Shown here: piece by piece, positions 32,600 to 52,508 of the stretch
How positions within the stretch are numbered: the first letter of the stretch is position 1
Layout: each line of letters starts with the position of its first letter
NCBI RefSeq assembly: GCF_000016065.1
Contig: NC_009092.1
Span: 4,340,001-4,404,000 of the forward strand
Reading direction: 5' to 3'
Length of the DNA stretch: 64,000 nucleotides
Source of the DNA: Shewanella loihica PV-4
GTDB taxonomy: Bacteria > Pseudomonadota > Gammaproteobacteria > Enterobacterales > Shewanellaceae
Position numbers and translations under genes: made by a program
The notes under the pieces: generated by a model
What the model saw: only the letters and a program-made list of their open reading frames with translations
Database searches by the model: none
Told to the model about the DNA's origin: nothing

Positions 32600-33805
32600 T
32601 CAGTAGAAAGGCGTAGGATCCACATCCAAACTGCTGGGCGACACGCCGCGCTCGATGAAGAGATCCGATTTAAGCAGATCCACCATGGTCACCTCGGTGT
32701 AATGCTTATGCTTCACCGAATAGAAGGTCTTGAGCACGGGATGCAGGGCGTCTCTGTCTTTCGCCTCCCAGACGATGCCAATCCGACCGTCAGAGAGCTG
32801 CACCAGTGAACCCACGGGGTAGATACCGACGCAGCGGATAAACTCATACACCAGCTTCTCATCCAGATGGAAGGGGGTCAGGCTGAGTAGAATCTTAAAG
32901 GCGGCAGCCGGGCTCATCGCCTCCTTGTAGCAGCGAGTCGCGGTCAGGGCGTCGAAGATATCCACGATACAGCTCATGCGGCCATGGAGGGAGATCTCCT
33001 CTCCCTTTAGACCATTGGGATAGCCCTTGCCATCGAGCTTCTCGTGGTGCATCAGACAGACGTCGCGGCTGATCTGCGACAGATCCTCTGTCTCGGCCAG
33101 GATCTCCTGAGCATAGACCTGATGCAGCTTCATATGCTCAAACTCTTCCGGCGTCAGGCGCCCCGGCTTGTGCAGTATGCGATTATTGACGCGCACCTTG
33201 CCGATATCGTGCAAGATACCGCCCACCGCTAACTGTTTGAGCACGCTACGCTTAAGCTTGAGATAGCGACCAAAGGTCACCAGCAGGAAGGCCACATTGA
33301 TGGAGTGTTCCAGCAGGTAGGCATCTTTAGAGCGCAGGGCCGAGATACACTTGAAGGCGTCGGCATCGAGCATGACGGATTCGAGCATCTTGTCCGCCAG
33401 CGCCTCGAAGGGCTCTACCTTGACCGCCTTACCCTCGAAGGTCTCGGACAAGACCTTCTTGACCAGATCTTTCGCCTCGCTCATCAGGCGTTTGGCCTTC
33501 TCCTGGGACTGATCCCGGGTCAGGCGTATTATCTTCTCCGGCTCTTGTTTCGGCCTGAGTCCACACTCTGGCGCCGACCTTTCTACGTCGACCCAGACAT
33601 ACTCGATACCGTTACGCACCAGCTTATCTATGGCTTGTCGATCTTTAATCTGTCCCGGATTGGTGATATTGACTCTTCCCTGATGATCGATAGCCGCAAC
33701 ATACATACCCAGCGCCAGGTTTGGCACCGGCACCTTCATGACATCCGCTTTTTCGTTCACACTTTCGGTCATACCGCTTTCCAAAAAATCACCCGGTTTT
33801 CGCAT
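32600..33805 (-). CDS. HD-GYP domain cyclic di-GMP phosphodiesterase (DUF3391 N-terminus)
   Basis: 401 residues. The N-terminal DUF3391 part (KVPVPNLALGMYVAAIDHQG) is followed by the HD-GYP domain: KDAYLLEHSINVAFLLVTFG, GGILHDIGKVRVNNRILHKP, FEHMKLHQVYA, MHHEKLDGKGYPNGLKGEEI and IVDIFDALTATRCYK. All metal-binding histidines/aspartates and the GYP motif are intact, so it should hydrolyse c-di-GMP and promote motility over biofilm. Starts at ATG 33805 (AAGGAG close) or 33772 are both possible. Confidence 0.95.
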   Translation of the reverse strand: MRKPGDFLESGMTESVNEKADVMKVPVPNLALGMYVAAIDHQGRVNITNPGQIKDRQAIDKLVRNGIEYVWVDVERSAPECGLRPKQEPEKIIRLTRDQSQEKAKRLMSEAKDLVKKVLSETFEGKAVKVEPFEALADKMLESVMLDADAFKCISALRSKDAYLLEHSINVAFLLVTFGRYLKLKRSVLKQLAVGGILHDIGKVRVNNRILHKPGRLTPEEFEHMKLHQVYAQEILAETEDLSQISRDVCLMHHEKLDGKGYPNGLKGEEISLHGRMSCIVDIFDALTATRCYKEAMSPAAAFKILLSLTPFHLDEKLVYEFIRCVGIYPVGSLVQLSDGRIGIVWEAKDRDALHPVLKTFYSVKHKHYTEVTMVDLLKSDLFIERGVSPSSLDVDPTPFY

Positions 33806-34011: not shown

Positions 34012-34218
34012 CTACAAGAAGGTACACTCGATGGCGTCGATCAACCAACGACGACGGGCACAATTAACGCAGGAACGCTCGATATCATCCACCTGCTCAT
34101 CCTCATCGTCGGCGATGAAGCCGTCGCACTCAGCCGCCAGTTGTCGCGAGGCGGCATAGTCTTCCCCGGTTATGGTCAGTTGCCAGCGCCCCTGGCGTAG
34201 TTCAAATGCTTGCTGCAT
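34012..34218 (-). CDS. small CxxC protein of the TonB-ECF operon
   Basis: 68 residues from ATG 34218, with GAGGAG just upstream (an ATG at 34230 overlaps that ribosome site). The sequence is acidic in the middle (FIADDEDEQVDDIE) and ends with SCVNCARRRWLIDAIECTFL; the CxxC plus a third Cys could bind zinc or a cluster. No family recognised. It is the last gene of the operon, 32 bp after the TiaS-like gene. Confidence 0.65.
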   Translation of the reverse strand: MQQAFELRQGRWQLTITGEDYAASRQLAAECDGFIADDEDEQVDDIERSCVNCARRRWLIDAIECTFL

Positions 34219-34250
34219 CTTGCTCCTCATCGACTTTACTGTGTGGGCCG

Positions 34251-35006
34251 TTAATAGTGTTTCAGCTGCTGCTTGAGGGCGTTGCGCCAGCGGCCCTGAT
34301 CCTCATACACCAGTAGAGAGACCTGATGATCCCGATAGACGGCCTTGACCTTGCCAGACAGATAGAGGAGCGTCTTGAAGCAGAGCTGCTCGCCGCTATT
34401 GCTGAGCACACGGTCGACCCCGGTCAGCTCGATCGCCTCACCGACCGAGAGTGACACCTCGCCCGCCTCTAGGCCGGGCAGGTTAAACTGCCCCTTGATG
34501 CGACCATCGTTGCCCTGCAGCCTAAGTCCCAGCCCCGCGAGTGCACCTATGATCCCCTGCCCAGTGCCGCCATGTTCACTCAGGTGTATGCCAAGCAGCT
34601 CGGCCAGGGCGTAGGCTTGCGCCTTGGTCTTCACCTCTTCCTTAGCCTGCTCGCCGAAGGCGATGAGCGCCTCACGATCACATGAATGCTGCAGATCCAG
34701 CAGGGCGATGCCGGGGTCGGACGCCGCGGCGCTCTCGCTACGCAGATGGGCCACGGCTATCTCTAATATCTCATCCTGAGACTTAGCGGTGCGCACCTGA
34801 AAACACATGGCGCTGTTATGGGAGGTGTAGGGAATATCAGGGTGCACATAGAGCTGATGCCTAGTCACGAAGGCGCAGCGGCTCAGGTGATTATCGCTCA
34901 GCAGATGCGCTATCTCCTCGGCGATCTCCCCGGTTCCCTTGGTGCCGATATCATCGGTATCGTCGATGCACACCAACCAAGATCTCAACCCAGATGCTCT
35001 CACCAT
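34251..35006 (-). CDS. TiaS-like protein (tRNA-Ile2 agmatinylcytidine synthetase N-terminal region)
   Basis: 251 residues; AGGAG lies eight bases before ATG 35006. The N-terminal motif LVCIDDTDDIGTKGTGEIAE, VHPDIPYTSHNSAMCFQV and the later HLSEHGGTGQGIIGALAGLG parallel the three conserved blocks of archaeal TiaS (IDDTDS..., nPNIP.KTRGNGA, GNGRGLIGALAAIG). Archaeal TiaS joins agmatine to tRNA-Ile2 C34, but is longer; bacteria use TilS for that step. The lack of the C-terminal part and the ECF-transporter neighbours argue for a different substrate, perhaps the imported one. Function not assigned. Confidence 0.75.
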   Translation of the reverse strand: MVRASGLRSWLVCIDDTDDIGTKGTGEIAEEIAHLLSDNHLSRCAFVTRHQLYVHPDIPYTSHNSAMCFQVRTAKSQDEILEIAVAHLRSESAAASDPGIALLDLQHSCDREALIAFGEQAKEEVKTKAQAYALAELLGIHLSEHGGTGQGIIGALAGLGLRLQGNDGRIKGQFNLPGLEAGEVSLSVGEAIELTGVDRVLSNSGEQLCFKTLLYLSGKVKAVYRDHQVSLLVYEDQGRWRNALKQQLKHY

Positions 35007-35008
35007 GC

Positions 35009-35548
35009 TTATATCTCCTCTCTATCAATCAGGTCGTGGCTACGCAGTCGCTCCAGTACGGGCGGCACCAACATGGCCGCCAACAGGGCGAAGAAGCTGC
35101 CAAACAACAGGCTCTTACCGAACTGTAGCGCCACCACTTGGGTGCTCAGCCCCGCCAGCAGCCCCTCGATAAGCCCCTTGCTGGCCCAGGCCAGGGTGCC
35201 CACCAGCGCCAGTATGATGCAGCGCCACTTGAGCGCCAGCAGGCTGGGCAGTAGCAGCAGGCAGATATCCATGGCGATAGCCGGCAGGCCAAACTTCACC
35301 AGCAGGAAGGGACCGCCCTTGCCGACGCCCAGGGTCATGGCCATCATGCCCGCCAACAGGCCACACAGGCTGATGGCACCGCGCTTACCCACGGCGCCAT
35401 AGCAAATTAAATAGAAGAAGCTCATCAGGAACATGGAATGTCCCGACAGCCCTAGTTTTAGCCTCAGCATCCCCTTCAGCGCCACCAGCAGGGTGGCACA
35501 GAAGCCGATAAACAGGGCGTCATTTAGGTTGAATCCTTTATTGTTCAT
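35009..35548 (-). CDS. putative ECF transporter S component (substrate-binding membrane protein)
   Basis: 179 residues from ATG 35548; the frame continues upstream to 35923 only as an antisense-like shadow of the T component. Five to six membrane helices are visible (ALFIGFCATLLVALKGML; MFLMSFFYLICYGAVG; AISLCGLLAGMMAMTLG; ICLLLLPSLLALKW; SLLFGSFFALLAAMLVP). Small size, helix count and position between the T component and a TiaS-like gene fit an S component; the fingerprint of a known vitamin family is not seen. It gives the system its substrate specificity. Confidence 0.65.
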   Translation of the reverse strand: MNNKGFNLNDALFIGFCATLLVALKGMLRLKLGLSGHSMFLMSFFYLICYGAVGKRGAISLCGLLAGMMAMTLGVGKGGPFLLVKFGLPAIAMDICLLLLPSLLALKWRCIILALVGTLAWASKGLIEGLLAGLSTQVVALQFGKSLLFGSFFALLAAMLVPPVLERLRSHDLIDREEI

Positions 35549-35562
35549 ACGCTTGGTTCTCA

Positions 35563-36234
35563 CTAATAGGGCCAGTGGGTCGGCTTGGGATGACGACCAA
35601 ACTGGCGCAGCCTGGCCGCTGTGGCCATCTGCTTGGATAGTTTTAACAGCTGGATCAGCAGCGGATAGAGCACGCAGTAGATCAGCTCGCGCCAATGCTT
35701 GGGACGCCACAACGACTTGAGGCGAATGTTGGCGCCGCGCATCACCTGCATCTGATAGATCTCCCGCGTCTCCTGCCCTAGGTAAGGCAAGATGCCGAAG
35801 CAGGCGGCCAGCACGAAGGCCCACTTGTGGGGCAGACAGAAGCTGAGCACCTCGCCGATTCGCTGGGGCGAGCAGGCCACCGACAGCCACCAGCCGGGGA
35901 TCATGGCCATCAAGATGCGGCACACGGCGATAATCCCCTCGGGTAGACGCTCGAGTCCGTGCAGCAACAGATAGAGCAGGCTAGTGATCGCCAACTGACT
36001 GGTGAAGATCACCAACAGCCCCCTGAGTCGCCCGCCCAGGTAACGACCCTGTATCAGCAACAGCAAGTTCGCCAGGCCCAGGTAATGCAGCCATGACTGG
36101 GGCAACAGGAAGGCGCAACTGGAGAGCCCCAGGGCGAGAAGGATGGCGAGCGCGCACCAGCGGGTATCGTTGACCGCGAAGTGGCGTTTAGCACGGCGCA
36201 CTCCAGGCGCGCGCACGCCGCGTCTAGCCCACAC
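35563..36234 (-). CDS. putative ECF transporter T component (EcfT-like)
   Basis: About 223 residues if GTG 36234 is the start, overlapping the ATPase stop by 11 bases; an ATG at 36279 would add 15. Several membrane helices (ALAILLALGLSSCAFLLP; LGLANLLLLIQGRYLG; LLVIFTSQLAITSLLYLLL) are followed by the coupling-helix region QETREIYQMQVMRGANIRLK, whose QVMRGA is close to the EcfT A-R-G signature that contacts the ATPases. It connects the ATPase to the S component. Confidence 0.75.
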   Translation of the reverse strand: MWARRGVRAPGVRRAKRHFAVNDTRWCALAILLALGLSSCAFLLPQSWLHYLGLANLLLLIQGRYLGGRLRGLLVIFTSQLAITSLLYLLLHGLERLPEGIIAVCRILMAMIPGWWLSVACSPQRIGEVLSFCLPHKWAFVLAACFGILPYLGQETREIYQMQVMRGANIRLKSLWRPKHWRELIYCVLYPLLIQLLKLSKQMATAARLRQFGRHPKPTHWPY

Positions 36235-37588
36235 GTGAATACGCCTGTGGCGAGGCCGAGAGAGATTCGAGACGCCCATCCACCACCCGCCAGAGGCGAT
36301 CCACCGGCAGCGCCGCAATCGGCCTGTGACTGGCGATCACCAGGGCTGTGCCCTGACGGCTCAGCTCGGTCAGCAGCGCCACTATCTTGTCGGTGAAGTG
36401 CTCGTCCAGCCCGGCGAACGGGTCATCCAGTAGCAGTAGCTTGGGCCTGAGACAGGCTAGCGACGCCAGGGCGATCAGATGCTGCTGACCGTAGGAGAGC
36501 GTATGAGGCGAGTGCCGCGCCAATGTAGTCAACCCAAGTTGCCCCAGGAGTTCGATGGCCCGCTCCAGCGGCAAGCCGAAACGCTTGAGGCTAAACTGCA
36601 TCTCCTCGATAACGGTATTTTCAAACAGCTGTCGACTCGGCCGCTGGTGCAGCAAGGCAAGGTCGGCGCCGAAGCGTCCCAACTTGGGCTTCTTGCCAAA
36701 CACCTTGATGCCCAAGGGATCGATATCCGCCTGAATACCGGCCAGACTCTTGAGCAGGGTACTCTTGCCGCAGCCGTTGTCGCCCACCAGGGCGGCAATC
36801 TCACCGGGGAAGAGCAGCAGGGAGTCGGCGTCGAACAGCTTCTGGCGCTCACGAAACGCTAAGGTAAAGCCATGACTGTCGATGACGGCGCTACCCTGCG
36901 GCCAGGCCGGCGACTCGCGCCAACTTACCTGCTCCGAAGTCGCTTCACACTCCGCCGGCGCTAACGCCTGCAGTTGGCCCTGACTGAGCTGCCATCTGTG
37001 GGTAACCAGATCCTTGAAGACGCCTCTGTGATGCTCGACGATCAACAGAGCCACGCCCTGCTGCTTGAGTTGGTGGAGCACGGCCGACAGCTCGGCCACT
37101 CCCTGATCGTCCAGCTGCGCCCAGGGCTCATCGAGCAACAAGAGGTCTGGCTCGAGCACCAGCTGGGCGGCGATCATCAGGCGATAACGCTGTCCCAGAG
37201 AGAGGCTGGCGATGGGCGTGTCTAGGCTGATATAGAGGCCGACCCGTCTTAGGGCCGAGCGCACCTGCAGCAGCATCTCACTGCTGGCGACGCCTAAGTT
37301 TTCCAGGGCGAAGGCCACCTCGGCCCCCAGCGTCTGGCGCAGCAGCTGCACATTGGGGTCCTGCATCACCACGCCCAGGGTCGCCCCCTCGGCGATCTCA
37401 CGCTCCCCCTCCCAGGGACGCTCCAGGATCCCCTGCAGCAGCTTGAGCAGAGTCGACTTACCACAGCCGGTGTAGCCGTGGATCAGGTGACACTCGCCGG
37501 CCGCTATGGTCAGATTAAGATCCTCAAACAGCGGCTGCGCCGCTGTCTGGAAGTTAAAATGGATCTGACTGAGTCGCACCAGGGCCAT
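36224..37588 (-). CDS. fused double ATPase of an ECF transporter (EcfA-EcfA')
   Basis: 454 residues with two ABC domains. First: Walker A GYTGCGKST, Q-loop VVMQDPNVQL, signature LSLGQRYR, Walker B LLLLDEPWAQLDD, switch His in LIVEHHR. Second: Walker A GDNGCGKST, Q-loop ALLHQRPSRQ, signature LSYGQQHL, Walker B LLLLDDPFAGLDE, switch VIASHRP. In the second domain Asp replaces the usual catalytic Glu after Walker B, so its ATP hydrolysis may be reduced. It starts 9 bp after the TonB receptor stop and overlaps the T-component start. Confidence 0.92.
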   Translation of the reverse strand: MALVRLSQIHFNFQTAAQPLFEDLNLTIAAGECHLIHGYTGCGKSTLLKLLQGILERPWEGEREIAEGATLGVVMQDPNVQLLRQTLGAEVAFALENLGVASSEMLLQVRSALRRVGLYISLDTPIASLSLGQRYRLMIAAQLVLEPDLLLLDEPWAQLDDQGVAELSAVLHQLKQQGVALLIVEHHRGVFKDLVTHRWQLSQGQLQALAPAECEATSEQVSWRESPAWPQGSAVIDSHGFTLAFRERQKLFDADSLLLFPGEIAALVGDNGCGKSTLLKSLAGIQADIDPLGIKVFGKKPKLGRFGADLALLHQRPSRQLFENTVIEEMQFSLKRFGLPLERAIELLGQLGLTTLARHSPHTLSYGQQHLIALASLACLRPKLLLLDDPFAGLDEHFTDKIVALLTELSRQGTALVIASHRPIAALPVDRLWRVVDGRLESLSASPQAYSRVG

Positions 37589-37597
37589 GGTTTATGC

Positions 37598-39805
37598 CTA
37601 TAGCTGCCAGTTCACGCCCAGGAACAACTGACGACCCGCCTGAGGCAGCCCCTCGCTCTGATAGTAACGCTCATCGAGCAGGTTAGTGGCTCTGAGGTAG
37701 ACAGACAGGGCGTCACCCGCGATAGGCTGGCTCAGCTTGAGATCCACCAGTGTGTAGTCATCCAGCGACTTCTCCACCAGCTGTTTCTGACCGGCCACCT
37801 TCTCTTCGGTGTGGAACACCTGGCCCATGATGTGCTCGATATTCAGGTTGATGCGGGTCGCAAAGCTAAACTCGTAATCCGCCTGCAGCCTGAATTTATG
37901 ACGCGGACGGTACTCTAAGGTATCCAGTCCCGGCGCCGCATCCTTGTCTTCACTATCGAGGAAGCTGTAGCCGAAGCTCAGCGACAGGTTATCGATGCTC
38001 TGATCGCGTACCAGGAAGTCGACCCCCTTGAACTGATAGCGGCCCATGTTCTGATAGATGCCATCGACATCCTTGGCGATATAGTTGTCCGCATCCGTGT
38101 AGTAGGCCGCCAGGCTCAGATCTGTGTTGCTACCCAGCCCCTGTGCCAGACTCAGCTCCAGGTGTTTAGAGGTCTCAGATTGCAGATCTTGGTTACCCGA
38201 CGAGAGTGAGTAGAGGTTGCGCATCGATGGGAAACGCACCTTACGGGCCACACCCAGATTGAGGCGAGTCGCTTCGGCGGCCTGCCAGTAGGCTGAGGCC
38301 TGCGCCGAGTAGTCGGACTCATCTTCACGCACACGTTGCTGCTCGTGTAGGGCGCCGCCCAGGCTGGCACCGATACTATCCTGTTGATACTGATATTCCG
38401 CCGCCAGGGTGTAGAGCCAGGACGAATCGTCGAATGACTCGGCGCCGCCAGAGCCATTACCACCGCCCGTGCCACCGCCGGTTCCTGAGCCAGAACCGCC
38501 ACCTGTGCCAGATCCGCTACCCGACCCTGTTCCACTGCCTGAACCCGAACCGCTACCGGTTCCCGATCCCGAGCCTGATCCGCCCCCAGTACCTGAGCCC
38601 GAACCACCTCCAGTTCCTGTTCCAGATCCGCTGCCGGAGCCAGATCCTAAACCACTACCTGAACCACTGCCGGTGCCACTTCCTGTGCCTGTGCTGCCGG
38701 TATCTATCTGATTACTCTCTGACTCCCAGCTCTGGTGCTCGGCGATCAGGGCGCCGGTCAGCAGGTGACCCTTATCGAAGTCGGCGATCAGCTGCAGGTT
38801 ACCGCCGCTGACCACAGAGCGGCCGTCCAGGCTCTGCTGCAGGCCGGCGAAACTGTCATCCAGATAACGGTTTTCCAGCACGTCAGACTGATTCTGGTAG
38901 ATGAAGCCCCTCAGGGTCAGCAGCTCGTTGAATCTATGGGCCAGACCCAGTTGCACCGTATGGGCATCATAGTCGTCGACGCGTTCAAATTTGGCCTTAC
39001 CAGAGGTTGTGCCATCGACGGCGGGCTTGCCCCACTCGCCGCTACGCAGGCTGAGGTTTGCCATCAGCTGGGTATTGTCCGACAGCCAGTAGCTGCCCTG
39101 GGCAAACAGGTTGTTGATCGTCTTGTCGCTGTTGAAACGGGTATCGCCCTGCTGCACCTCGGTATCCGGCTGATCGCCAGACACAGGCCAGCCATCGGTC
39201 TGCTGACGCGACAGCGATACCAGCCCCTGCCAGCGTTCGCCCGAGCCCGCCACTGTGACGTCGCCGTTGAAGGTATCGTTTTCGCCGCCCTCTAGATGGC
39301 CGGAGAAGCCGGGCACATCGGCGCCCTGTTTAGTGCGGATGTTGATCACGCCGCCGGCGCCGCCCGGACCATAGAGCACAGAGGTTGGGCCCATGGAGAC
39401 GGTGACCGAGGCGATCTGGCTGGCAGGCACCACGCTAGGATCGAACTGACCATCTTCGGCGCCATTGGCCGGCACGCCGTTGATCAGATAGATGACGTGT
39501 CTGGCCTTAAAGCCGCGCACATCGACCCTGGGCGTGCCCTGGCCACCGGTACGCACATAGACGCCAGGGGCATTCTTCAGTACCTCGTCCAGGCTCTGGG
39601 CACCCATGGCCTGAATTTCATCGGCACTGATGGTCCAGCTACTCGTGGTCTGTTGCAGCGGCGTCGGCTTCTCGCCGGTCACCACTATGACTTCGGCCAC
39701 ATCTAAAATGGGCTCGTGTTTGACTTCCTCGGCCATGACCAGAGGACTGGCGGCAACCGCGGCTGCCACGAGTGATAATTTGAGACTGATTGGTTTGTTT
39801 TTCAT
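37598..39805 (-). CDS. TonB-dependent outer-membrane receptor with Gly/Ser repeat loop
   Basis: 735 residues. Signal peptide to about residue 25 (SLVAAAVAASPLVMA), a TonB box near EVIVVTGEK, a plug domain with SLDEVLKNAPGVYVRTGGQG and GPTSVLYGPGGAGGVINIRT, then the barrel, ending GRQLFLGVNWQL as usual. It imports a ligand across the outer membrane with energy from TonB-ExbBD. Residues about 368-455 are an extraordinary run of Gly, Ser and Thr inserted in what should be an extracellular loop. It heads the operon with the ECF ATPase, T, S and TiaS-like genes, so all probably handle one ligand. Confidence 0.93.
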   Translation of the reverse strand: MKNKPISLKLSLVAAAVAASPLVMAEEVKHEPILDVAEVIVVTGEKPTPLQQTTSSWTISADEIQAMGAQSLDEVLKNAPGVYVRTGGQGTPRVDVRGFKARHVIYLINGVPANGAEDGQFDPSVVPASQIASVTVSMGPTSVLYGPGGAGGVINIRTKQGADVPGFSGHLEGGENDTFNGDVTVAGSGERWQGLVSLSRQQTDGWPVSGDQPDTEVQQGDTRFNSDKTINNLFAQGSYWLSDNTQLMANLSLRSGEWGKPAVDGTTSGKAKFERVDDYDAHTVQLGLAHRFNELLTLRGFIYQNQSDVLENRYLDDSFAGLQQSLDGRSVVSGGNLQLIADFDKGHLLTGALIAEHQSWESESNQIDTGSTGTGSGTGSGSGSGLGSGSGSGSGTGTGGGSGSGTGGGSGSGSGTGSGSGSGSGTGSGSGSGTGGGSGSGTGGGTGGGNGSGGAESFDDSSWLYTLAAEYQYQQDSIGASLGGALHEQQRVREDESDYSAQASAYWQAAEATRLNLGVARKVRFPSMRNLYSLSSGNQDLQSETSKHLELSLAQGLGSNTDLSLAAYYTDADNYIAKDVDGIYQNMGRYQFKGVDFLVRDQSIDNLSLSFGYSFLDSEDKDAAPGLDTLEYRPRHKFRLQADYEFSFATRINLNIEHIMGQVFHTEEKVAGQKQLVEKSLDDYTLVDLKLSQPIAGDALSVYLRATNLLDERYYQSEGLPQAGRQLFLGVNWQL
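38440..38704 (-). repeat. degenerate short-period repeat coding Gly/Ser/Thr loop
   Basis: About 265 bp made of hexamer-like GGCTCA / GGATCT / GGTACT variants (minus strand) within the TonB receptor gene. Codons vary (GGC, GGT, GGA, GGG; TCA, AGT, TCT, AGC), so the tract is kept in frame as protein, not as an exact DNA repeat. Confidence 0.85.
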
Positions 39806-40195
39806 GTTTTCATCGCTGTGTCATTTCCCTATGGCCGTCATTCTTCCGGCTTACACCTGTAGCAACAAGCTAACGAAAACCAAAAACAAACCCAGATCGA
39901 CAAATTTGAACAAATGCCGCGGTGACGACGATAGGCAAGGGACATTTTGTCCAGTGTAAAGCCTTGATTAGACAAAAATACACAGGCTTGAAATGCTTCC
40001 GAAAAAACTGACAAATCTCTCTTTTCTTGGACAAGCTCACAGCTTAACCGCCTGTAACTTGACAGCTAACAGTCGGCACATTAATTTGTGGTAAAGATTC
40101 TTATTACCAATTCAGATAAGTCTCACATTCGCCGCGTTTGATGTCCTTAACCCGCCCTCAAACTCACGCACTTTTTTACCAGGTTGGAGTATTTC
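39806..40195. other. intergenic region between divergent TonB operon and menF
   Basis: No gene. It must hold the promoters for both units. A palindrome GGACATTTTGTCC-type element lies at about 39950-39962 and a TGGTAA-N9-TTACCA element at 40089. I looked for a cobalamin riboswitch on the minus strand and saw neither the box GCCACTG nor the rest of the core. Confidence 0.5.
40089..40109. promoter_or_regulatory. operator-like palindrome TGGTAA-N9-TTACCA
   Basis: Perfect 6-bp arms spaced by nine bases, about 90 bp before menF and 280 bp before the TonB receptor gene. It weakly resembles a Fur box (10 of 14 in the 7-1-7 form by eye); the binding protein is unknown. Confidence 0.4.
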
Positions 40196-44021: not shown

Positions 44022-46163
44022 CTAGGCCTCTCGCGCCTTCTTATCTAGCGCACTTGAGAAATGCAGCCCCTCGTAGGGCGGATTGAACTGATCGTCGATC
44101 GCCTTATGGTACAGGCCTATGGTAAACAGGGTGCCCTTGCCGACCGTGGAGCTGACCTCTATGGTGCCGCCGATCCGCTTGATGATGCCGTAGCTTAGCG
44201 ACAGCCCCAATCCGGTACCGTCCTGACGCGTGGTATAGAAAGGATCGAAGATGCGCCCCAGTTGCTCCTCGGGGATCCCCTTACCCTCATCTTCCACCTC
44301 TATCTTGACCCCTATGGGCTCACCGCCCTGGACCCAGTCGTAGGTGCGGATCCAGATGCGTCCCTGTCCATCCATGGCATGGGCGGCGTTGACCACCAGG
44401 TTGATCAGCACCTGCAATAGCTGAGGACGATTGACCTCGATAGGATAACTGGCGTTGAGATCCTGGATCAGCACCACCTCCTGCTTCTTGATGGAGTGAC
44501 GCACCAGAATGGCCATCTCCTCGACGATAGGCGTGAGCTGATGCATCTCCAGCGGCGCGTTAAATTCGCCGGGACGACTGTATTGCAACAGGCTGCGAAT
44601 GATGGTGCTGATACGCCCCACCTGCTCGATGACGATATCAATCTCTTCCTCAACATCCTCGGCCTTGTCGCCCAGCTCAGACTTCAGCAGCTCCATGTTA
44701 CCCAGGATAACCGCCGTCGGATTGTTGATCTCATGGGCGATACCTGCCGTCAACTCACCCAGGGCGGTCAACTTCTCGTTGGTCACCAGCTGCTGGCGAG
44801 TCTCGTTCAGCAGGGCAACGTTACGCTGCAGCTCCTCTGTCTTCTCCTGCAGACTGCGGGTACGCTCCTCGACCTTGACCTCAAGCTGCTCTGCCGCCGC
44901 CTGGATCTGCGAGTTGCGTCGCTGCAACAGGTCCAGCATGCGGTCGAACTGCTCGGCCAGATTCGCCAGCTCGTTGTCGCGCTCCAGCCCCAGAGAACCG
45001 ATTCTCAGGTTACGCCCCGACTGCACCGCCTTCACCACATGGTGAATACGCTCGATCGGCTGTAGCAGGCTGTAGGCGCCACGGTAGACCAGCAGGCCAG
45101 AGACCAGCAGCACCAACATGAGGATAGTGCCCAGCTCTATGATGTTCAGCAGATAGTTATGAATAAAGGGAGATTCGGAAAATCCCGTGTAGATCATGCC
45201 AATACGCTCACCGCGAATATCCTTGAGCGGCGCATAGGCGGAGATAAACCAGTCGTTGTAGACGAAGGCGCGGTCGACCCACAGCAGCCCCTGCACTAAC
45301 ACCTTCTGACGCACCTCTTCCGACACCAGACTACCCAGCGCTCGGCCGCGCTTCTCGCTGTCCTGGGGGAAGAAGTTCAGCGGCACGTTAGTGCTGATGC
45401 GTGTGTTATCGAGGAAGATGGTTACCGTGCCGATGGAGCGCTCTGGCAGCGTGCCCTTGTCATAAACCAGGTCACGAATATGGTCCACGATGCGAATGTC
45501 GCGATTAAGCAAGATGCCGCCGTCCAGATACCAGCCCACTGTGCCATCGCTGCCGAGGATCGGCAGCAGGCTGCGACTGAGCATGCCGCGCTTCTCCACA
45601 TCCTTGCTCGGCTTCTGGGATCTTGGGGTGTCCACCAGGGTGATCACCGCCTCCTGCTCCAGGTTGGGTGCCAAACGGGCCAGACGCTGGGGCTGCAACA
45701 CCATTAAACCCGAGAAGGGCTGATTGTCCTGTATCTTGGGCAGCATCACCCTAAGATCCGGGTCCTGGGCCGCCTCGGAGACGCTGATCAGCCTGAGGAA
45801 GTCCAGGTCGAGCTCGGCCTGCTTTTGCTTGAGCAGCTCGGCCAGCTGAGTTCTGGCGGCCTTGCTGTCGGTATCGAGATCGCGAAATTCGTTTTGAAAC
45901 TCCCAGGAGGCGCGCACCAGCTCGAGCTGATTTTCCTGCTTCTCCTGCACAGAGATCAGTGTGTTGCTGGCAACGGTAAGGTCGGCCTTCACCTTCATGA
46001 AGAGCTGTTTGCCCGTGTAGCTGATGTTCCAGTAGATGGTGATGAACACCAGGCTCACCAAGGTCAGCAAGATGGGCAGCAGGGTAAGGATCAAGATGCG
46101 ATAACGCACCTTGGCCTGCAGCTGCTGCCAGTTGACACCAAAGAGACGCGAGAAAAAAGACAC
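44022..46163 (-). CDS. membrane sensor histidine kinase with periplasmic sensor and HAMP
   Basis: About 713 residues from GTG 46163 (AGGAAG upstream, 2 bp after the regulator stop); a longer frame overlaps the regulator. Order: membrane helix (ILILTLLPILLTLVSLVFIT), periplasmic double-Cache-like sensor, second helix (GTILMLVLLVSGLLVYRG), HAMP, coiled coil, HisKA with phospho-accepting His in GELTAGIAHEINNPTAVILG, and ATPase with LVNAAHAMDG, DEGKGIPEEQLGRIFDPFYT and GTGLGLSLSYGI. Its partner is the sigma54 activator encoded just upstream. Signal unknown; the tup operon suggests an oxyanion or metal-related cue (inference). Confidence 0.93.
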   Translation of the reverse strand: MSFFSRLFGVNWQQLQAKVRYRILILTLLPILLTLVSLVFITIYWNISYTGKQLFMKVKADLTVASNTLISVQEKQENQLELVRASWEFQNEFRDLDTDSKAARTQLAELLKQKQAELDLDFLRLISVSEAAQDPDLRVMLPKIQDNQPFSGLMVLQPQRLARLAPNLEQEAVITLVDTPRSQKPSKDVEKRGMLSRSLLPILGSDGTVGWYLDGGILLNRDIRIVDHIRDLVYDKGTLPERSIGTVTIFLDNTRISTNVPLNFFPQDSEKRGRALGSLVSEEVRQKVLVQGLLWVDRAFVYNDWFISAYAPLKDIRGERIGMIYTGFSESPFIHNYLLNIIELGTILMLVLLVSGLLVYRGAYSLLQPIERIHHVVKAVQSGRNLRIGSLGLERDNELANLAEQFDRMLDLLQRRNSQIQAAAEQLEVKVEERTRSLQEKTEELQRNVALLNETRQQLVTNEKLTALGELTAGIAHEINNPTAVILGNMELLKSELGDKAEDVEEEIDIVIEQVGRISTIIRSLLQYSRPGEFNAPLEMHQLTPIVEEMAILVRHSIKKQEVVLIQDLNASYPIEVNRPQLLQVLINLVVNAAHAMDGQGRIWIRTYDWVQGGEPIGVKIEVEDEGKGIPEEQLGRIFDPFYTTRQDGTGLGLSLSYGIIKRIGGTIEVSSTVGKGTLFTIGLYHKAIDDQFNPPYEGLHFSSALDKKAREA

Positions 46164-46165
46164 GG

Positions 46166-47548
46166 TTATTCTTCCTCGAGATGATTGAGTTCGAACCACT
46201 CTTTATATTTACGATCCAGTGTCTTACGGGAAACCCCTAGATCGCGCGCGGCGGCAGACTTGTTGCCCTGATGCAGGTCGACCACTGAGGTCACATGGTG
46301 TTTCTCAACTTCCTTGAGCGACCAATCCAGCGGATAACCCAGCTCGCCGGTTGCCTCTGATTTAGGCTGCTGTTTCCAATATTCCGCCGGTGGCTTACCC
46401 AGCAAAATACAGCGCTCTATCATGTTGCGCAGCTCACGGATGTTGCCCGGCCACTCATGCTGTTGCAGCTTGAGCATATCCTCGTGGCTCCACACCACCT
46501 CTTTAACCCCCAGCTCGGCGGCCAACAGGCGGGTGAAGTGATGGGTCAGCTCCACCACATCTTCGGGGCGCTCCCGCAGCGGGGGTATCACTATGTCTAA
46601 TACGTTGAGTCGATAGAAGAGATCACGCCTGAAGTTACCGGCCTCCACCTCATCCGCCAGCTTGCGGTTGGTGGCCGCCAGCACCCGGACATCGATATTG
46701 ATCTCCTTCTCGCTGCCCACGGGGCGTATGGTGCGCTGCTCCAGCACCCTAAGCAGAGCCGTCTGCATCTTGAGCGGCATCTCGCCTATCTCGTCGAGGA
46801 AGATGGTGCCGCCCGAGGCGAAGCTGAATAAACCTTCACGGTTGCCCTTGGCGCCGGTGAAGGAACCAGCCGCATGACCGAAGAGTTCACTCTCCAGCAG
46901 TTCGGGAGCGATGGCGCCACAGTTGACCGGTACAAAGGGCCCCTGACGACCGCTGAGCAGATGCAGCTGTCTGGCCACCAGCTCCTTACCCGTGCCCGAT
47001 TCGCCTTCGATCAGAATTACCGCATTGGTGGGTGCCACCCGCTCGATCACATGTTTCACCTCCATCATGGCATCGCTGCTGCCTATGATGGTGGAGGATT
47101 GGCCGATGGAGACCTCGCGGCGCAGCATGAGGTTTTCGCGCTTGAGCAGGCGACGTTCGATGCAGCGGTCAACCGCCTTCATCATCTGCTCCAGGTGGAA
47201 GGGTTTCATAATAAAGTCAGAGGCGCCGGCGCGCAGCGCCTTGATGGCCACGTCCATATCGGCATAGCCCGTCATGAAGATGATGTCTGAGCGCCGCTCC
47301 TGATCGCTCAGCGCCTCGTCCCACTCGATGCCGGAACGACCCGGCAGGCGGATATCGACGATCAGCAGATCGAAGTGACAGCGGCTCCTGAGCTGCTCGG
47401 CATCTTCGACGCTACCTGCGGTTTCCACCAGGGCGAACTTCTTCGACAGCGCCTTCTTCAGGAAGCTGCGCATGCCCGGCTCATCGTCGACGATTAGCAC
47501 AGATACGGCGGATGGTAGGGGCTTCATCTCTTTATTAGGCTGGCTCAT
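46166..47548 (-). CDS. sigma54-dependent NtrC-family response regulator
   Basis: About 460 residues from ATG 47548 (MSQPNKEMKPLPS). Receiver domain VSVLIVDDEPGMRSFLKKAL with phospho-Asp in LLIVDIRLPGRSG; AAA+ domain with Walker A GESGTGKE, the sigma54-contact loop reading GSFTGA (Ser for the usual Ala), Walker B GGTIFLDEIGEM, arginine finger region FRRDLFYRLNV; and a Fis-type helix-turn-helix NKSAAARDLGVSRKTLDRKY. It activates sigma54 promoters. The divergent tupA gene carries such a promoter, so it is the likely target. Confidence 0.94.
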   Translation of the reverse strand: MSQPNKEMKPLPSAVSVLIVDDEPGMRSFLKKALSKKFALVETAGSVEDAEQLRSRCHFDLLIVDIRLPGRSGIEWDEALSDQERRSDIIFMTGYADMDVAIKALRAGASDFIMKPFHLEQMMKAVDRCIERRLLKRENLMLRREVSIGQSSTIIGSSDAMMEVKHVIERVAPTNAVILIEGESGTGKELVARQLHLLSGRQGPFVPVNCGAIAPELLESELFGHAAGSFTGAKGNREGLFSFASGGTIFLDEIGEMPLKMQTALLRVLEQRTIRPVGSEKEINIDVRVLAATNRKLADEVEAGNFRRDLFYRLNVLDIVIPPLRERPEDVVELTHHFTRLLAAELGVKEVVWSHEDMLKLQQHEWPGNIRELRNMIERCILLGKPPAEYWKQQPKSEATGELGYPLDWSLKEVEKHHVTSVVDLHQGNKSAAARDLGVSRKTLDRKYKEWFELNHLEEE

Positions 47549-47644
47549 ATTGTCTTCTTTTGGACATTTTGACTCATATTGAACAGATTCTAGCATCAAA
47601 CCTCGGCCAATTGGTCACCCTGAACCAGTAGAATCACGCTCTGG

Positions 47645-47655
47645 GACATTATGTC
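47645..47655. promoter_or_regulatory. candidate activator site GACATTATGTC
   Basis: A perfect 11-bp palindrome about 80-90 bp upstream of the sigma54 promoter, in the position expected for an enhancer bound by the adjacent NtrC-type regulator. Binding is inferred. Confidence 0.4.
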
Positions 47656-47732
47656 TGGCGACAATTTGCCGAGCTTGCGATCTGCTTCACACTTTGTTGG
47701 CAACTTGTGAGCTTTTTTTACAGATAATGGAT

Positions 47733-47749
47733 TTGGCACTGTTTTTGCT
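47733..47749 (+). promoter_or_regulatory. sigma54 promoter of the tup-mob-moa operon
   Basis: TTGGCACTGTTTTTGCT has GG at 47735-47736 and GC at 47747-47748, exactly ten bases between, and matches YTGGCACNNNNNTTGCW. Transcription would begin near 47760, about 65 bp before tupA. Confidence 0.85.
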
Positions 47750-47825
47750 GAAACAGAGTCGTTATTCACACAATCGGCGTGATACCGGCAACATCACGCA
47801 AACCAGCAGATGCCAAGGAGCAAAA

Positions 47826-48638
47826 ATGCTAAAGCTAAAATCGATACTCAGCCTAGCGATCGTCGCCAGTGCCCTAACATTAACCTCAGCCCAGGCAGAA
47901 GAGATCATTAAACTGGCCACCACCACCAGCACAGAAAACTCTGGCCTACTCAAGCACCTACTGCCTAAGTTCGAGCAGGAGTCTGGCTACAAGGTTCAGG
48001 TTATCGCCACAGGCACGGGTAAGGCCCTCAAGCTGGCTCGCCAGGGCGACGTGGACGTGGTGATGACTCACGCCCCAGCTGCCGAAGCCAAATTCGTTAA
48101 CGAAGGCTACGGCATACTGCCACGCGGCATCATGGAAAACGATTTTGTGATCTTGGGCCCGAAAAATGACCCAGCTAAGATCCGTAGCAGTAAGACAGCC
48201 GAAGAGGCCTTTGCTAAAATAGCCGACTCTGGCGCGGGCTTCGTCTCTCGCGGTGACAACTCTGGTACCAACATGAAAGAGTTGATCATCTGGAAAGGCG
48301 CCAAGGTTGAGCCAACATTTAACGGCTACCGCGCCGTGGGCCAAGGCATGGGTAAGACACTGCTGATGGCCAACGAGCTACAAGCCTACACACTATCTGA
48401 CCGCGGCACTTTCGTGGCCTACAAGGCGAAGCTAGATCTCGCGGTTGACTATGATGGCGGTAAGACACTGGCGAATCCTTATCAAATCATGTTGATCAAC
48501 CCTGAGAAATACCCAGATCTTAACCACAAAGGTGCTAAGGCGCTGAGTGACTGGCTGATCGGCAACGAAGCCCAAGGCATGATTAACAGCTACACCGTAC
48601 AGGGTGAGCAACTATTTAAGGCAACATATAGCGAATGA
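47826..48638 (+). CDS. tupA: tungstate ABC transporter substrate-binding protein TupA
   Basis: 270 residues from ATG 47826 (AGGAGC upstream); the longer frame passes through the promoter. Signal peptide LSLAIVASALTLTSAQA, then the TupA hallmark KLATTTSTENSGLLKHLLPK, followed by GTGKALKLARQGDVDVVMTH and FVSRGDNSGTNMKELIIWK. TupA binds tungstate (and molybdate) in the periplasm. First gene of tupA-tupB-tupC-mobA-mobB/moeA-moaA; its stop overlaps the tupB start (ATGA). Confidence 0.94.
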   Translation: MLKLKSILSLAIVASALTLTSAQAEEIIKLATTTSTENSGLLKHLLPKFEQESGYKVQVIATGTGKALKLARQGDVDVVMTHAPAAEAKFVNEGYGILPRGIMENDFVILGPKNDPAKIRSSKTAEEAFAKIADSGAGFVSRGDNSGTNMKELIIWKGAKVEPTFNGYRAVGQGMGKTLLMANELQAYTLSDRGTFVAYKAKLDLAVDYDGGKTLANPYQIMLINPEKYPDLNHKGAKALSDWLIGNEAQGMINSYTVQGEQLFKATYSE

Positions 48639-49342
48639 GTGAAGGCTGGTTAGCCCTAATACAGCAGGCGTTGAGCCTGCTGTTTTCATTAGATCCCGAT
48701 GTTTGGTCTATCGTCAGCGTCTCCTTTTCTGTCTCTCTGGCTGCGCTGGCGATCACCCTTATTCCCTCTATGATACTGGGCTTCGTGCTGGCCTTCGCCC
48801 GTTTTCCCGGACGCTGGTTTGCAACGAATCTGGTACAGACGACCCAATCTATCCCCACAGTGGTGATCGGCCTCTTGGTCTATCTGATGCTTACCCGCAT
48901 GGGCCCCCTGGGGGATCTTAAATGGCTATTTACCCAGAAAGGCATGATACTGGGACAGATGATGATCTGCGCCCCCGTGTTAATCGCCATGAGTCAGGCC
49001 GCCTTTACCAGCGTGGACAAGCGTGCCTGGGAAACCTCACGCACCTTAGGTGCCTCCTGGCTGCGTTCCGTCTGGCTGGTGTGCCGCGAACTCAAAGTAC
49101 CGCTGTTGATGGCCATAGTCGCGGCCTTTAGCCGCATTCTCACCGAGGTGGGTTGTTCCATGATGGTGGGCGGCAACATCGCCGGCGTCACCCGCAATAT
49201 CCCCACCGCCATTGCCCTGGAAACCAGTAAGGGCGACTTCGCCCAGGCTATCGCCCTGGGACTGGTACTGCTTATTCTGGCCTTAGTGCTTAACTTCACG
49301 CTCGGCACCCTCAGAGGCAGAGCCGAACCTAGGAGCCTATAG
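48635..49342 (+). CDS. tupB: tungstate ABC transporter permease TupB
   Basis: 235 residues with about six membrane helices (SIVSVSFSVSLAALAITLIP; TVVIGLLVYLMLT; AIALGLVLLILALVLNFTL). The ATPase-contact loop WETSRTLGASWLRSVWLVC is the EAA-type motif. ATG overlaps the tupA stop. It forms the channel with TupC as motor. Confidence 0.93.
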   Translation: MSEGWLALIQQALSLLFSLDPDVWSIVSVSFSVSLAALAITLIPSMILGFVLAFARFPGRWFATNLVQTTQSIPTVVIGLLVYLMLTRMGPLGDLKWLFTQKGMILGQMMICAPVLIAMSQAAFTSVDKRAWETSRTLGASWLRSVWLVCRELKVPLLMAIVAAFSRILTEVGCSMMVGGNIAGVTRNIPTAIALETSKGDFAQAIALGLVLLILALVLNFTLGTLRGRAEPRSL

Positions 49343-49344
49343 CC

Positions 49345-50061
49345 ATGGTCAAGATCATCGCCAACAACATAGAGATGCGTTTCGGCAGCCGCCTGCTGTA
49401 CCGTTTCGATCGCCTCAGCCTAGCTCAGCACCAGACCATACACCTGCAGGGCGACAACGGCAGCGGCAAAACCACACTGATGAAGATGCTGGCAGGCCTG
49501 CAGGCGCCAAGTAGTGGCGAGATCCACACAGAAGGTTTCGCCCCCAATCCATGGTGGCGCCGCAACCCTTTGCTGGGCAAGGCGGTCTATCTGCATCAAC
49601 ACCCCTATCTGTTTGACGGCAGCGTGGCCTACAACCTCAACTATGTGCAGCCCCTTTGCGACATGACGGAGCAGGAGATCGCCTCGCGTACCCAGACGGC
49701 TATCGAGATGGCCCAGCTGGGCAGCCTGCTCAACCAGAGAGCCGCCAGCCTCTCCGGCGGCGAGCGCCAACGTCTTGCCATCGCCCGCGCCTGGATCATG
49801 CGTCCACGCCTGCTGATGCTGGACGAACCTACCTCCAACATGGACAAGCTGTCCCAGCAGCTGGTACTGACCATGGTCAGCCACCTGAAACAACAAGGCA
49901 CAGGCATGCTGATCAGCAGCCATCAAAGCTGTTCACTCACCGGCCTGTGCGAGCAGACCTGGCAGATCCAGGCACAAGCAATTCAGGTAAGCCCGTCGAC
50001 TCTCGATGAGCGCCCCTTCACCCCATCACAGCAGGAGCTGAGATATGTCACCGCAAATTGA
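49345..50061 (+). CDS. tupC: tungstate ABC transporter ATPase TupC
   Basis: 238 residues. Walker [11 protein letters not shown]-loop [10 protein letters not shown], signature LSGGERQR, Walker [14 protein letters not shown], switch His in ISSHQ. The tupB end supplies AGGAGC as ribosome site. It overlaps mobA by 17 bases, so import and cofactor genes are translationally linked. Confidence 0.93.
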
Positions 50062-50635
50062 TGCCGTGATCCTTGCCGGCGGCATGGCCAGACGCATGGG
50101 CGGCAACGATAAGGGACTGGTCGAACTCAACGATCAGCCGATGATAAAACACGCAATCGACAGGATAAAACCTCAGGTTAAGCAGATCCTGATCAACGCA
50201 AATCGCAACCAGAATCGCTATGCTGAGTTCGGTTACCCAGTATTGAGTGACGAAGACTCGGGTTATTTAGGGCCGCTGGCCGGCATGATCACCGCAATGG
50301 GGCAGACCCAGGCCGACTACCTTCTGGTAGTACCCTGCGACTGCCCGCTGCTGCCGACGGATCTGGTGCAGCGTATGCTGGCGGCGATCACCGCAGAAGA
50401 CGCCGAGATGGCGGTGGCCAGCGACGGTAAACGAGAACAACCTGTGGTGTTACTGATGAAGCCCGCGCTGCGAGGGTCGATGAAGGCCTTCTTGGATGCC
50501 GGCGAGCGTAAGATCGATTTCTGGTACGCCAAACACCACTGCGTGGTGTGTGACTTCTCCGATCAGCCCAACGCCTTCGTGAACGTCAACACGCCAGAAC
50601 AAAAACAACAACTTTCCGAGGCAATTGCCCACTAA
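50045..50635 (+). CDS. mobA: molybdenum cofactor guanylyltransferase MobA
   Basis: 196 residues. Nucleotide-binding start [20 protein letters not shown], then [17 protein letters not shown] and [17 protein letters not shown], all MobA hallmarks. It transfers GMP from GTP to molybdopterin, making the bis-MGD cofactor of DMSO-reductase-type enzymes. AGGAG sits ten bases upstream, inside tupC. Confidence 0.95.
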
Positions 50636-50649
50636 AAATAGAGGTGTAC

Positions 50650-52449
50650 ATGAGCGTACCGTTTAACAATCCACTGCCGATCCCCGTCCTCGGATTTTGC
50701 GCCTACAGTGGCACAGGCAAGACGACCCTGCTGAAAAAGCTGATCCCCGAACTCAATCGTCGAGGCCTGCGGCTAGCCGTTGTCAAACATGCTCATCACA
50801 ACTTCGATGTGGATATTCCCGGTAAGGACAGCTACGAGATGCGCAAGGCCGGTGCCCGCCAGATGCTGGTCGCCTCCCATGTGCGTTGGGCGCTGATGAC
50901 AGAAGATCCGGTAGAGGATGCGCCCGAGCTGCCCCACCTGCTGGCGCAAATTGAAGCCGACAAGGTGGATATCGTCCTGGTAGAGGGCTTCAAGAAGCTG
51001 GCCCTGCCTAAGGTGGAGCTGCACCGCGCCGCCCACGGCAAGCCCTTTATCCACCCCCATGACGAGCACATTCAAGCCATCGCCTGCTGCGACGATACCG
51101 AGCTGCCCTCAGATCTCAGACGCCTAGATATCAACGATGTGGGCCAGATAGCCGACTTCGTCATCGAATACGCCAACAACTGGCGCCCCAGCACACCATC
51201 GCTCCCCCTCGCCCCCGAGTGCGGATGCGAGCTGGACACCAGCAAGACGCTGTCGGTGAGACAAGGGATAGATAAAATTCTTTCTTACGTCACGCCTGTG
51301 TCGGCCACCGAAGAGGTCGCCATTGACGACAGCACTGACAGGGTACTGGCTCAAGATGCCATCTCGCCGGTAGACGTGCCACAGCACACCAATTCGGCGA
51401 TGGATGGCTTCGCGTTTGCCTACTCAGACCCCATGTTAGACAGCTACACTCTGGTAGGCGATGTGATGGCCGGTCATAGCTATCAGGGCACACTCAACCT
51501 AGGTGAAGCCGTGCGCATCATGACAGGTGCCCCCATGCCGGACGGCGCCGATACGGTGCAGATGAAGGAAATGGCCGAAGACAGCGGCGACAGCGTCCGC
51601 TTCCAGGGTAACATTCGCCTGGGGCAACACGTGCGCCAAGCCGGTGAAGACATCGCCAAGGAGCAGACCGCCCTGAGCGCCGGACACAGACTCAAGGCCG
51701 CCCATCAAGGCATGCTGGCCTCCTTGGGCTTTGGCAAGCTGCCCGTATATCGCCGCCCTAAGGTCGCCGTCTTCTCCACTGGCGACGAGGTGTGTCAGCC
51801 GGGCGAGCCCTTAAAGCCAAACTGCATATACGACTCCAACCGCTTCACCATCAAGTCCATGGTGAAACAGCTAGGCTGTGAGGTGATCGATCTCGGCATC
51901 CTGGAAGATAACGAATCAGCCCTGGTCGACGCCCTACAAGGCGCGGCGCAGCAGGCCGATGTGGTGATAAGCTCAGGCGGCGTCTCGGTGGGCGATGCCG
52001 ACTTTATCAAATTGGCGCTCGCCAAGGTGGGACAGATCAACTTCTGGCGCATCAACATGCGTCCTGGTCGCCCACTGGCCTTCGGTCAGATTGGTGACAG
52101 CCTCTTCTTCGGCCTGCCGGGTAACCCTGTGGCCGTGATGGTCTCCTTCATGCAGTTCGTTCAGCCTGCGCTGCGCAAGTTAGCGGGCGAACTGGAATGG
52201 GCGCCGACCTTAGTGCCCGCCATCGCCGACTGCACCCTACGTAGCCGCACCGGCCGCACCGAGTTTACCCGCGGCGTCTATCATCTGGGCGCTGACGGTC
52301 GCCTGCATGTGACCAGCACAGGCGCGCAGGGTTCGGGCATGTTGAGCTCAATGGTGAAGGGTAACTGCCTTATCGTGATCGCCGAGAAAGACGAGCAGCT
52401 CAACGTGGGTGATACCGTTTATATTCAACCCTTTGCCGATCTCTTATAG
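50650..52449 (+). CDS. MobB-MoeA fusion protein
   Basis: 599 residues from ATG 50650 (AGAGG upstream). Residues 1 to about 180 are MobB: GFCAYSGTGKTTLLKKLIPE (P-loop), KHAHHNFDVDIPGKDSYEMR, DIVLVEGFKK. Residues about 200 to the end are MoeA: DRVLAQDAISPVDVPQHTNS, AMDGFAFAY, IMTGAPMPDGADTVQMKE, STGDEVCQPGEPL, ISSGGVSVGDADF and GLPGNPVAVMVSF. MoeA inserts molybdate (or tungstate) into adenylated molybdopterin; MobB helps nucleotide attachment. The two are normally separate genes, and fusing them puts metal insertion and GMP addition on one chain. Confidence 0.94.
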   Translation: MSVPFNNPLPIPVLGFCAYSGTGKTTLLKKLIPELNRRGLRLAVVKHAHHNFDVDIPGKDSYEMRKAGARQMLVASHVRWALMTEDPVEDAPELPHLLAQIEADKVDIVLVEGFKKLALPKVELHRAAHGKPFIHPHDEHIQAIACCDDTELPSDLRRLDINDVGQIADFVIEYANNWRPSTPSLPLAPECGCELDTSKTLSVRQGIDKILSYVTPVSATEEVAIDDSTDRVLAQDAISPVDVPQHTNSAMDGFAFAYSDPMLDSYTLVGDVMAGHSYQGTLNLGEAVRIMTGAPMPDGADTVQMKEMAEDSGDSVRFQGNIRLGQHVRQAGEDIAKEQTALSAGHRLKAAHQGMLASLGFGKLPVYRRPKVAVFSTGDEVCQPGEPLKPNCIYDSNRFTIKSMVKQLGCEVIDLGILEDNESALVDALQGAAQQADVVISSGGVSVGDADFIKLALAKVGQINFWRINMRPGRPLAFGQIGDSLFFGLPGNPVAVMVSFMQFVQPALRKLAGELEWAPTLVPAIADCTLRSRTGRTEFTRGVYHLGADGRLHVTSTGAQGSGMLSSMVKGNCLIVIAEKDEQLNVGDTVYIQPFADLL

Positions 52450-52508
52450 TCGACAATGGATTAGCCAGGCGGGTGAGACGAACTCCCCGCCGCCGTAGGT
52501 GATTCTGT

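Follow-up and report, generated by a model that had tools for sequence, protein, structure and literature searches.

The 64-kb window analyzed here (64,000 nucleotides, positions 4340001-4404000 of the 4.6-Mb one-contig genome of Shewanella loihica PV-4) contains an operon of six minus-strand genes that encode a TonB-dependent receptor, the parts of an energy-coupling factor (ECF) transporter, a relative of the archaeal tRNA-Ile2 2-agmatinylcytidine synthetase TiaS and a small four-cysteine protein (Table 1). The operon looks like an undescribed way to take up and process tungsten and/or molybdenum (W/Mo). All six open reading frames (ORFs) proposed by a first-pass annotation of the letters alone were confirmed, and the close spacing reported there holds, with gaps of 2-20 bp for the starts chosen here in place of the 2-32 bp or overlaps given at first.

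Table 1 Features of the window, with positions counted from its first nucleotide
Feature	Position	Strand	Remarks
TonB-dependent outer-membrane receptor, 735 aa	37598..39805	-	Plug and barrel domains
Fused double ABC ATPase, ECF type (CbiO-CbiO), 454 aa	36224..37588	-	Two ABC_tran stretches
ECF T component, CbiQ-like	35563..36216	-	Start GTG 36216 chosen here
S-like membrane protein, 179 aa	35009..35548	-	Start chosen here; same slot in ECF operons of other phyla
TiaS-like protein, 251 aa	34251..35006	-	TCKD kinase-type domain (residues ~8-165) and own C-terminal part
Four-cysteine small protein (CxxC protein)	34012..34230	-	C35, C54, C57 and C69 invariant in a 27-sequence alignment
Palindrome GGACATTTTGTCC	39940..39952		Upstream of the TonB gene; AT-core site
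Sensor histidine kinase, two-component system	44022..46199	-	
Sigma-54 response regulator	46166..47599	-	Mechanical start; ATG 47548 likelier
Palindrome GGACATTATGTCT	47644..47656		Upstream of tupA; second copy in the window
Sigma-54 type promoter TGGCACTGTTTTTGC of tupA	47734..47748	+	Sole consensus match in the window
TupA-like tungstate-binding protein	47826..48638	+	PF12849; start ATG 47826 chosen here, mechanical ORF from 47694
tupB permease	48635..49342	+	
tupC ATPase	49345..50061	+	
mobA	50045..50635	+	
mobB-moeA fusion	50644..52449	+	
moaA	52509..53495	+	

The reading as a TonB and ECF uptake operon is supported by the individual proteins. The receptor matches the Pfam barrel (91.6 bits) and Plug (85.1 bits) domains, its best relative in the PDB is CntO, the receptor for the metallophore complex metal-pseudopaline (E 3.6e-15), and it also matches vitamin B12 and siderophore models at scores under their cut-offs. 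It carries a low-complexity insertion rich in Gly, Ser and Thr (38470-38700, roughly residues 370-445) in which imperfect repeats of 18 and 24 bp occur. Both ATP-binding cassette (ABC) stretches of the double ATPase were recovered, with 213.3 bits against the CbiO model TIGR01166 (cut-off 211.8), and the T component, scored on its longest ORF, reaches 37 bits against CbiQ PF02361 (cut-off 25). The S-like protein, compared with the known S families, did not fall clearly into any of them, vitamin families included; it matched nothing in Pfam (in a 196-aa reading) or in NCBIfam, the MptD model TIGR02185 was touched weakly by two of 14 aligned S proteins (best E 0.03), and the YkoE comparison gave a weak match (E 3.6). 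A basic LxLPGH-type motif is kept in most S proteins. The CxxC protein has 72 aa, or the 68 reported originally if counted from the second ATG, and its structure model (predicted local distance difference test score, pLDDT, 82.7) found no convincing fold match in the PDB.

The suspected homology between the 251-aa protein and TiaS was found to be true and confined to the kinase domain: the two share the TCKD fold and the IDDTD, PYxT and GxGxIGALA motifs, and Thr25 of the window protein aligns with Thr18 of TiaS. The first-pass annotation had also stated that the archaeal C-terminal part is lacking. This is correct for the FLD domain (PF08489), which found no match in the PV-4 genome in a search that was positive in four of 14 control genomes, all four archaeal, but the protein has a C-terminal part of its own, about 80 residues long and conserved in its family. 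Judged from sequence, it represents a bacterial family of proteins of about 245 aa rather than a shortened TiaS; it further differs from TiaS in being encoded in transporter operons, and scores 24.1 bits against the archaeal TiaS profile NF040849 (cut-off 600). The genome search returned a single copy of the gene. The closest named family is methanogenesis marker protein 11 (TIGR03280), whose profile is matched by every one of the 36 aligned members (best E 5e-16), although the match covers the C-terminal half of that profile and the window protein, with 37.8 bits, stays below the cut-off of 255.8; we know of no function for this marker protein. Among the matches listed, the closest named relatives are Shewanella proteins. 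The family comprises more than 3300 protein clusters, and the named ones among 120 listed are mostly labelled 'DNA-binding protein'.

Scanning a genome collection, we obtained at least 593 pattern matches and at least 399 confirmed relatives. The 80 top-ranking loci, as matched against a single Firmicutes sequence, were kept, and their ORFs were clustered together with the window's own locus (81 loci). The TiaS-like gene was found in Firmicutes, in Gammaproteobacteria and in deltaproteobacteria, Geobacter-like ones among them. In the window's own family, the T, S and TiaS-like genes stand together in all of 30 loci (own genome included) and the CxxC gene joins them in 28; in all of 20 longer Shewanella loci the ATPase, T, S, TiaS-like and CxxC genes are found together, with the TonB gene in 19. 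Because this gene set is kept together across family and genus loci, the grouping is no chance arrangement. Locus L129, also from Shewanella, keeps the other five genes, and no TonB receptor was seen between its ATPase gene and menF. One contig (L076) is titled Marinobacter nauticus, although its coordinates are those of genome G254, which was placed in the window's family with Ferrimonas-like genomes; the title may be wrong.

The neighbourhood survey proposed in the first-pass annotation bore out a link with transporters more generally. A same-strand importer part lies at most five genes from the TiaS-like gene in 59 of 73 loci (seven of the 81 had no TiaS-like gene called by the ORF script, and the own-genome locus L081 was excluded), with MolABC/BtuCD-like importers in 41 loci and ECF importers in 18. 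The former loci consist of permease, ATPase, binding protein, TiaS-like and four-cysteine genes, and the binding-protein cluster stands immediately upstream of the TiaS-like gene in 25 of 30 placed copies, positions being measured from the 50 loci whose TiaS-like gene held one exact motif. In the one member tested, the best PDB match of the Gram-positive-variant binding protein is HI_1472 (E 7e-24), which we take to be MolA. Members of the TonB receptor cluster are present in 16 of the 81 loci and four-cysteine relatives in 32; the receptor is joined to a MolABC-like set in L027 and L055, and five Geobacter-like ECF loci include a gene for a TonB energy protein in their set (cluster 20; one tested by Pfam). 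In L033 the TiaS-like gene stands among genes for a WtpA-like binding protein, a permease and an ATPase, all named by eye. Since the importer type swaps while the TiaS-like gene stays, the TiaS-like protein most likely pairs with the ligand rather than with the ECF transporter.

Two or three tandem TiaS-like copies occur in L014, L023, L026, L042, L052 and L067, and in four scanned genomes one copy is far weaker (about 174-183 bits against at least 300), so the paralogues may differ in role. Proteins with SLH or Big_5 domains are encoded inside or ahead of Gram-positive TiaS-like operons in L003, L044, L045 and L061, and are perhaps surface capture proteins.

The first-pass annotation saw no vitamin riboswitch, and we likewise found no riboswitch in the window at Rfam gathering scores. 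In the related loci, 58 of the 80 were scanned with Rfam (875 kb), and RF01055, the molybdenum cofactor (Moco) RNA, was found in 33 of them, with 58 elements in all (by batch 7/9, 3/10, 7/9, 6/11, 4/10 and 6/9 loci). A sense-strand element lies ahead of the TiaS-like gene, at or inside its operon, in 27 of the 58 loci; the L010 element was missed by the placement script and sits directly before an operon gene. In L063 and L079 an opposite-strand element precedes a divergent tup set. Other riboswitches are isolated (cobalamin in L062, NiCo in L050, sodium in L049, TPP in L072, glycine in L076 and L078), and T-box leaders occur in L012 and L035. All 58 RF01055 elements (112-124 nt) lack the third hairpin in an alignment by eye, nine being shown by cmscan, and our reading from the order of the stems is that this hairpin corresponds to P3. 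Passages of one study (PMC2408646) tie the P3-less form of the Moco RNA to the tungsten cofactor, report that P3 is missing from 58 of its 176 Moco RNAs and that tungsten genes are present in 17 of the 19 organisms with P3-less RNAs, count a single Moco RNA in the majority of genomes and no fewer than 15 in the richest one, and mention a triple-riboswitch operon with unknown genes in S. wolfei.

The genes that recur near TiaS-like genes point to the same metals, and encode TupA-like, MoeA, MoaA-like, MobB-like and molybdenum storage proteins. The order in L006 is TiaS-like, four-cysteine, MogA-like, two MoeA, MoaA-like and MoaC-like genes (MogA, MoaA and MoaC by eye), and the molybdenum storage protein cluster is present in ten of the 81 loci (one member tested, PDB E 3e-72). 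A conserved small protein (L027:12403-12633 and cluster 12) is found next to the storage-protein homologues in some loci. Distances were evaluated for 50 of the 80 loci, equal to 49 genomes, with expectations from uniform placement. In 12 genomes the TiaS-like gene has a TupA-like gene no farther than 10 kb away (0.43 expected), or in ten (0.41 expected) if only matches of at least 100 bits are counted, which drops G014 (53.5 bits) and G028 (30.7 bits); the corresponding figures are six for MoeA (0.73 expected) and none for the control CobT (0.32 expected). Somewhere in the genome, a TupA-like gene is present in 46 of the 49. The window's family was covered by 58 genomes. The TiaS-like gene is present in 33 of these and a TupA-like gene in 49; every one of the 33 TiaS-like carriers also has a TupA-like gene, and all nine genomes without the latter lack the former too (Fisher p 1.9e-4, uncorrected for kinship). 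In 185 gammaproteobacteria the TiaS-like gene was found in three (own genome included), and TupA-like genes in 3/3 of these vs. 47/185 overall.

The window itself contains a two-component and tup/mob/moe/moa cluster (44022-53495, at about 44-53.5 kb), which the first-pass annotation had overlooked. According to a passage in PMC2667191, SO4718 of S. oneidensis regulates the transport of tungstate (molybdate); this protein is a candidate counterpart of the window's response regulator. The AT-core palindrome GGACAWWWTGTCC, allowing at least nine of ten arm positions, has two sites in the 64 kb, one before the TonB gene and one before tupA. Upstream regions were studied in 18 of the 20 Shewanella loci plus the window, L118 (partial TonB match) and L129 (no TonB) being excluded, with the palindrome counted over the 18: an AT-core site precedes the TonB gene in 11 of them, vs. 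one site in the other 137.7 kb of these loci. Upstream of tupA, all 21 regions have the sigma-54 promoter, and 13 have a palindrome scoring at least nine, which in 12 lies 87-90 bp upstream of that promoter. The operon and the tupABC-mobA-mobB/moeA-moaA genes are thus predicted to share a regulator in Shewanella.

The first-pass annotation had left the class of ligand open; riboswitches, neighbouring genes, co-occurrence and the shared operator indicate W/Mo. Evidence that the operon belongs to a W/Mo-regulated gene set comes from RF01055 in related loci and from the palindrome shared with tup in Shewanella, and its place in W/Mo supply is the firm part of the functional reading.

Several observations weigh against this reading. 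The surveyed loci are not independent of one another, several coming from one genus. The first-pass annotation had named homologues scattered without transporters as a counter-argument, and these exist in part: 14 of the 73 loci have neither importer type nearby on the same strand, several of them with tup- or wtp-like genes as neighbours (L033, L063, L071, L079). RF01055 is absent from the window and was not found in 25 of the 58 scanned loci, and in four of the 33 positive ones (L030, L038, L063, L079) the sole element is on the opposite strand. Every TupA-like match scores under its curated cut-off, that of the window included (199.9 bits against NF041772, cut-off 400), and the TiaS-like gene is within 20 kb of TupA in only 14 of the 33 family carriers. 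Regarding the palindrome, allowing any core and at most one mismatch gives four sites in the window vs. 1.54 by chance, and therefore the AT core matters, a core that was set after the upstream regions had been seen; a strong palindrome is missing upstream of TonB in seven of the 18 loci, individual tupA palindromes were equalled in 0-29 of 100 shuffles, and no canonical sigma-54 site lies upstream of the TonB gene. Finally, aldehyde ferredoxin oxidoreductase was not found in the window's genome, and the metal in this organism may for that reason be molybdenum.

With moderate confidence, we propose that the operon serves the high-affinity uptake and subsequent use of a bulky W/Mo compound, complemented by a TiaS-like kinase. 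Most likely the ligand would be a W/Mo compound of pterin type or a chelate of the metal, too bulky or too rare to be served by porins and TupABC; the combination of TonB with an ECF transporter, or with a type II importer, suggests that it is bigger or less abundant than tungstate. The TonB receptor would carry it across the outer membrane and the ECF complex across the inner membrane, with a MolABC/BtuCD-like importer taking the latter role in other bacteria. In the cytosol, the TiaS-like protein would phosphorylate the imported compound with ATP through its TiaS-type kinase domain, a role that we infer from the TCKD fold and from the alignment of Thr25 with Thr18 of TiaS. Phosphorylation would trap or open the compound and let the metal pass to cofactor synthesis (MoeA, MobA and others), and the four-cysteine protein probably assists metal binding or hand-over. 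Control would be exerted in Shewanella by the regulator held in common with the tup-moa genes, and in Firmicutes and Geobacter-like bacteria often by tungsten-cofactor riboswitches.

The alternative that survives best, although we regard it as unlikely, is an importer of free tungstate or molybdate, in which the TonB-ECF route scavenges the oxyanion and the TiaS-like protein serves in ATP-dependent handling, sensing or as a cofactor-insertion factor. Larger ligands are the usual cargo of TonB receptors paired with ECF or type II importers, porins pass oxyanions and Tup already imports them, and surface-type proteins (SLH, Big_5 and PF00174 lipoproteins) accompany the Gram-positive versions. 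On the other hand, the L033 gene lies inside a WtpA-like set, molybdenum storage proteins are encoded near TiaS-like loci and most S proteins have the basic LxLPGH-type motif. MolA, the best PDB relative of one partner binding protein, is described in part of PMC4031551 as binding the small oxyanions molybdate and tungstate, which also speaks against a large ligand.

As a reading of equally low probability, an environmental W/Mo pterin cofactor, intact or part-broken, would be recovered via the TonB-ECF or MolABC-like route with the TiaS-like protein as cytosolic kinase, in which case methanogenesis marker protein 11 would be an archaeal cousin in W/Mo-cofactor metabolism. Somewhat more doubtful is salvage of the cofactor, whole or as dephosphorylated pieces, with the TiaS-like protein rephosphorylating the pterin in the manner of vitamin kinases after ECF uptake, an explanation that partly overlaps the bulky-ligand model. 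A pterin cofactor is a possible ligand because proteins with the molybdopterin-binding fold PF00174 (L001, L006, L056, L058) and a nucleotide-pyrophosphatase-family protein (L001) are encoded nearby. The clostridial locus in question (L001:9266-16328) has an ECF-like set; genes that follow the TiaS-like gene at a short distance encode a MobB-like protein, a PF09819 membrane protein and the PF00174 and nucleotide-pyrophosphatase-family proteins just named.

That a commonplace system for a vitamin, cobalamin, haem or a siderophore stands near Mo/W genes by accident is disfavoured as improbable: the receptor's sub-cut-off matches to B12 and siderophore models, the similarity of the CbiO and CbiQ parts to cobalt importers and the cobalamin riboswitch at one locus are outweighed by the lack of CobT within 10 kb in any of the 49 genomes, by the ratio of one cobalamin riboswitch locus to 33 with RF01055 among 58, and by TonB upstream regions in which no convincing Fur box was found (best 14 of 19 positions). 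Least probable of all is modification of a bacterial tRNA with an incidental transporter link, since, true as the homology to the TiaS kinase domain is, the genome has no FLD match, the TiaS profile score is far under its cut-off, the gene is missing from 25 of the 58 family genomes and importer parts adjoin it in most surveyed loci.

Parts of the operon resemble known systems. ECF transporters with TonB receptors are known for vitamins and for Ni/Co, and share with this operon the CbiO-CbiO, CbiQ, S-like and TonB proteins; the operon differs in an S protein that matched no known family, in its W/Mo linkage and in the added TiaS-like and four-cysteine genes. The molybdate/tungstate importer MolABC (HI1470-1472), related through the Gram-positive-variant binding protein, is not in the window and to our knowledge has neither a TonB receptor nor a TiaS-like protein. 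The tungstate importers TupABC and WtpABC share neighbourhoods with the TiaS-like gene, and in Shewanella the palindrome; as far as we know, they import oxyanions and include neither a TonB receptor nor a kinase. Among the open-licence PMC papers listed in our searches, we found no description of this TonB-ECF-TiaS-like system. The RegPrecise regulons behind PMC3766115, to judge from part of that paper, may include some of these transporters, and a passage in PMC3543383 notes that genes for TonB-type channels in P. carbinolicus, located close to metal-binding proteins or to riboswitches for cobalamin or molybdopterin, 'may transport metals'.

Outside the operon, a gene for an HD-GYP-like protein (32600-33805, named by eye) lies directly downstream, in the same spot in 16 of the 20 genus loci. 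A gene for a menF-like chorismate-binding enzyme (40184-41554) is divergent from the TonB gene and present in 17 of the 20, one of these without a TonB gene.

How anaerobes obtain enough tungsten and separate it from molybdenum is poorly understood, and in a passage of a 2026 paper (PMC13197769) the tungstate-inserting enzyme is still regarded as not conclusively established. If our proposal is true, the TonB-ECF route with its dedicated kinase-like enzyme would constitute a new layer of W/Mo supply, the large TiaS-like family would gain a testable role, and a connection with methanogenesis marker protein 11, itself unexplained, is suggested.

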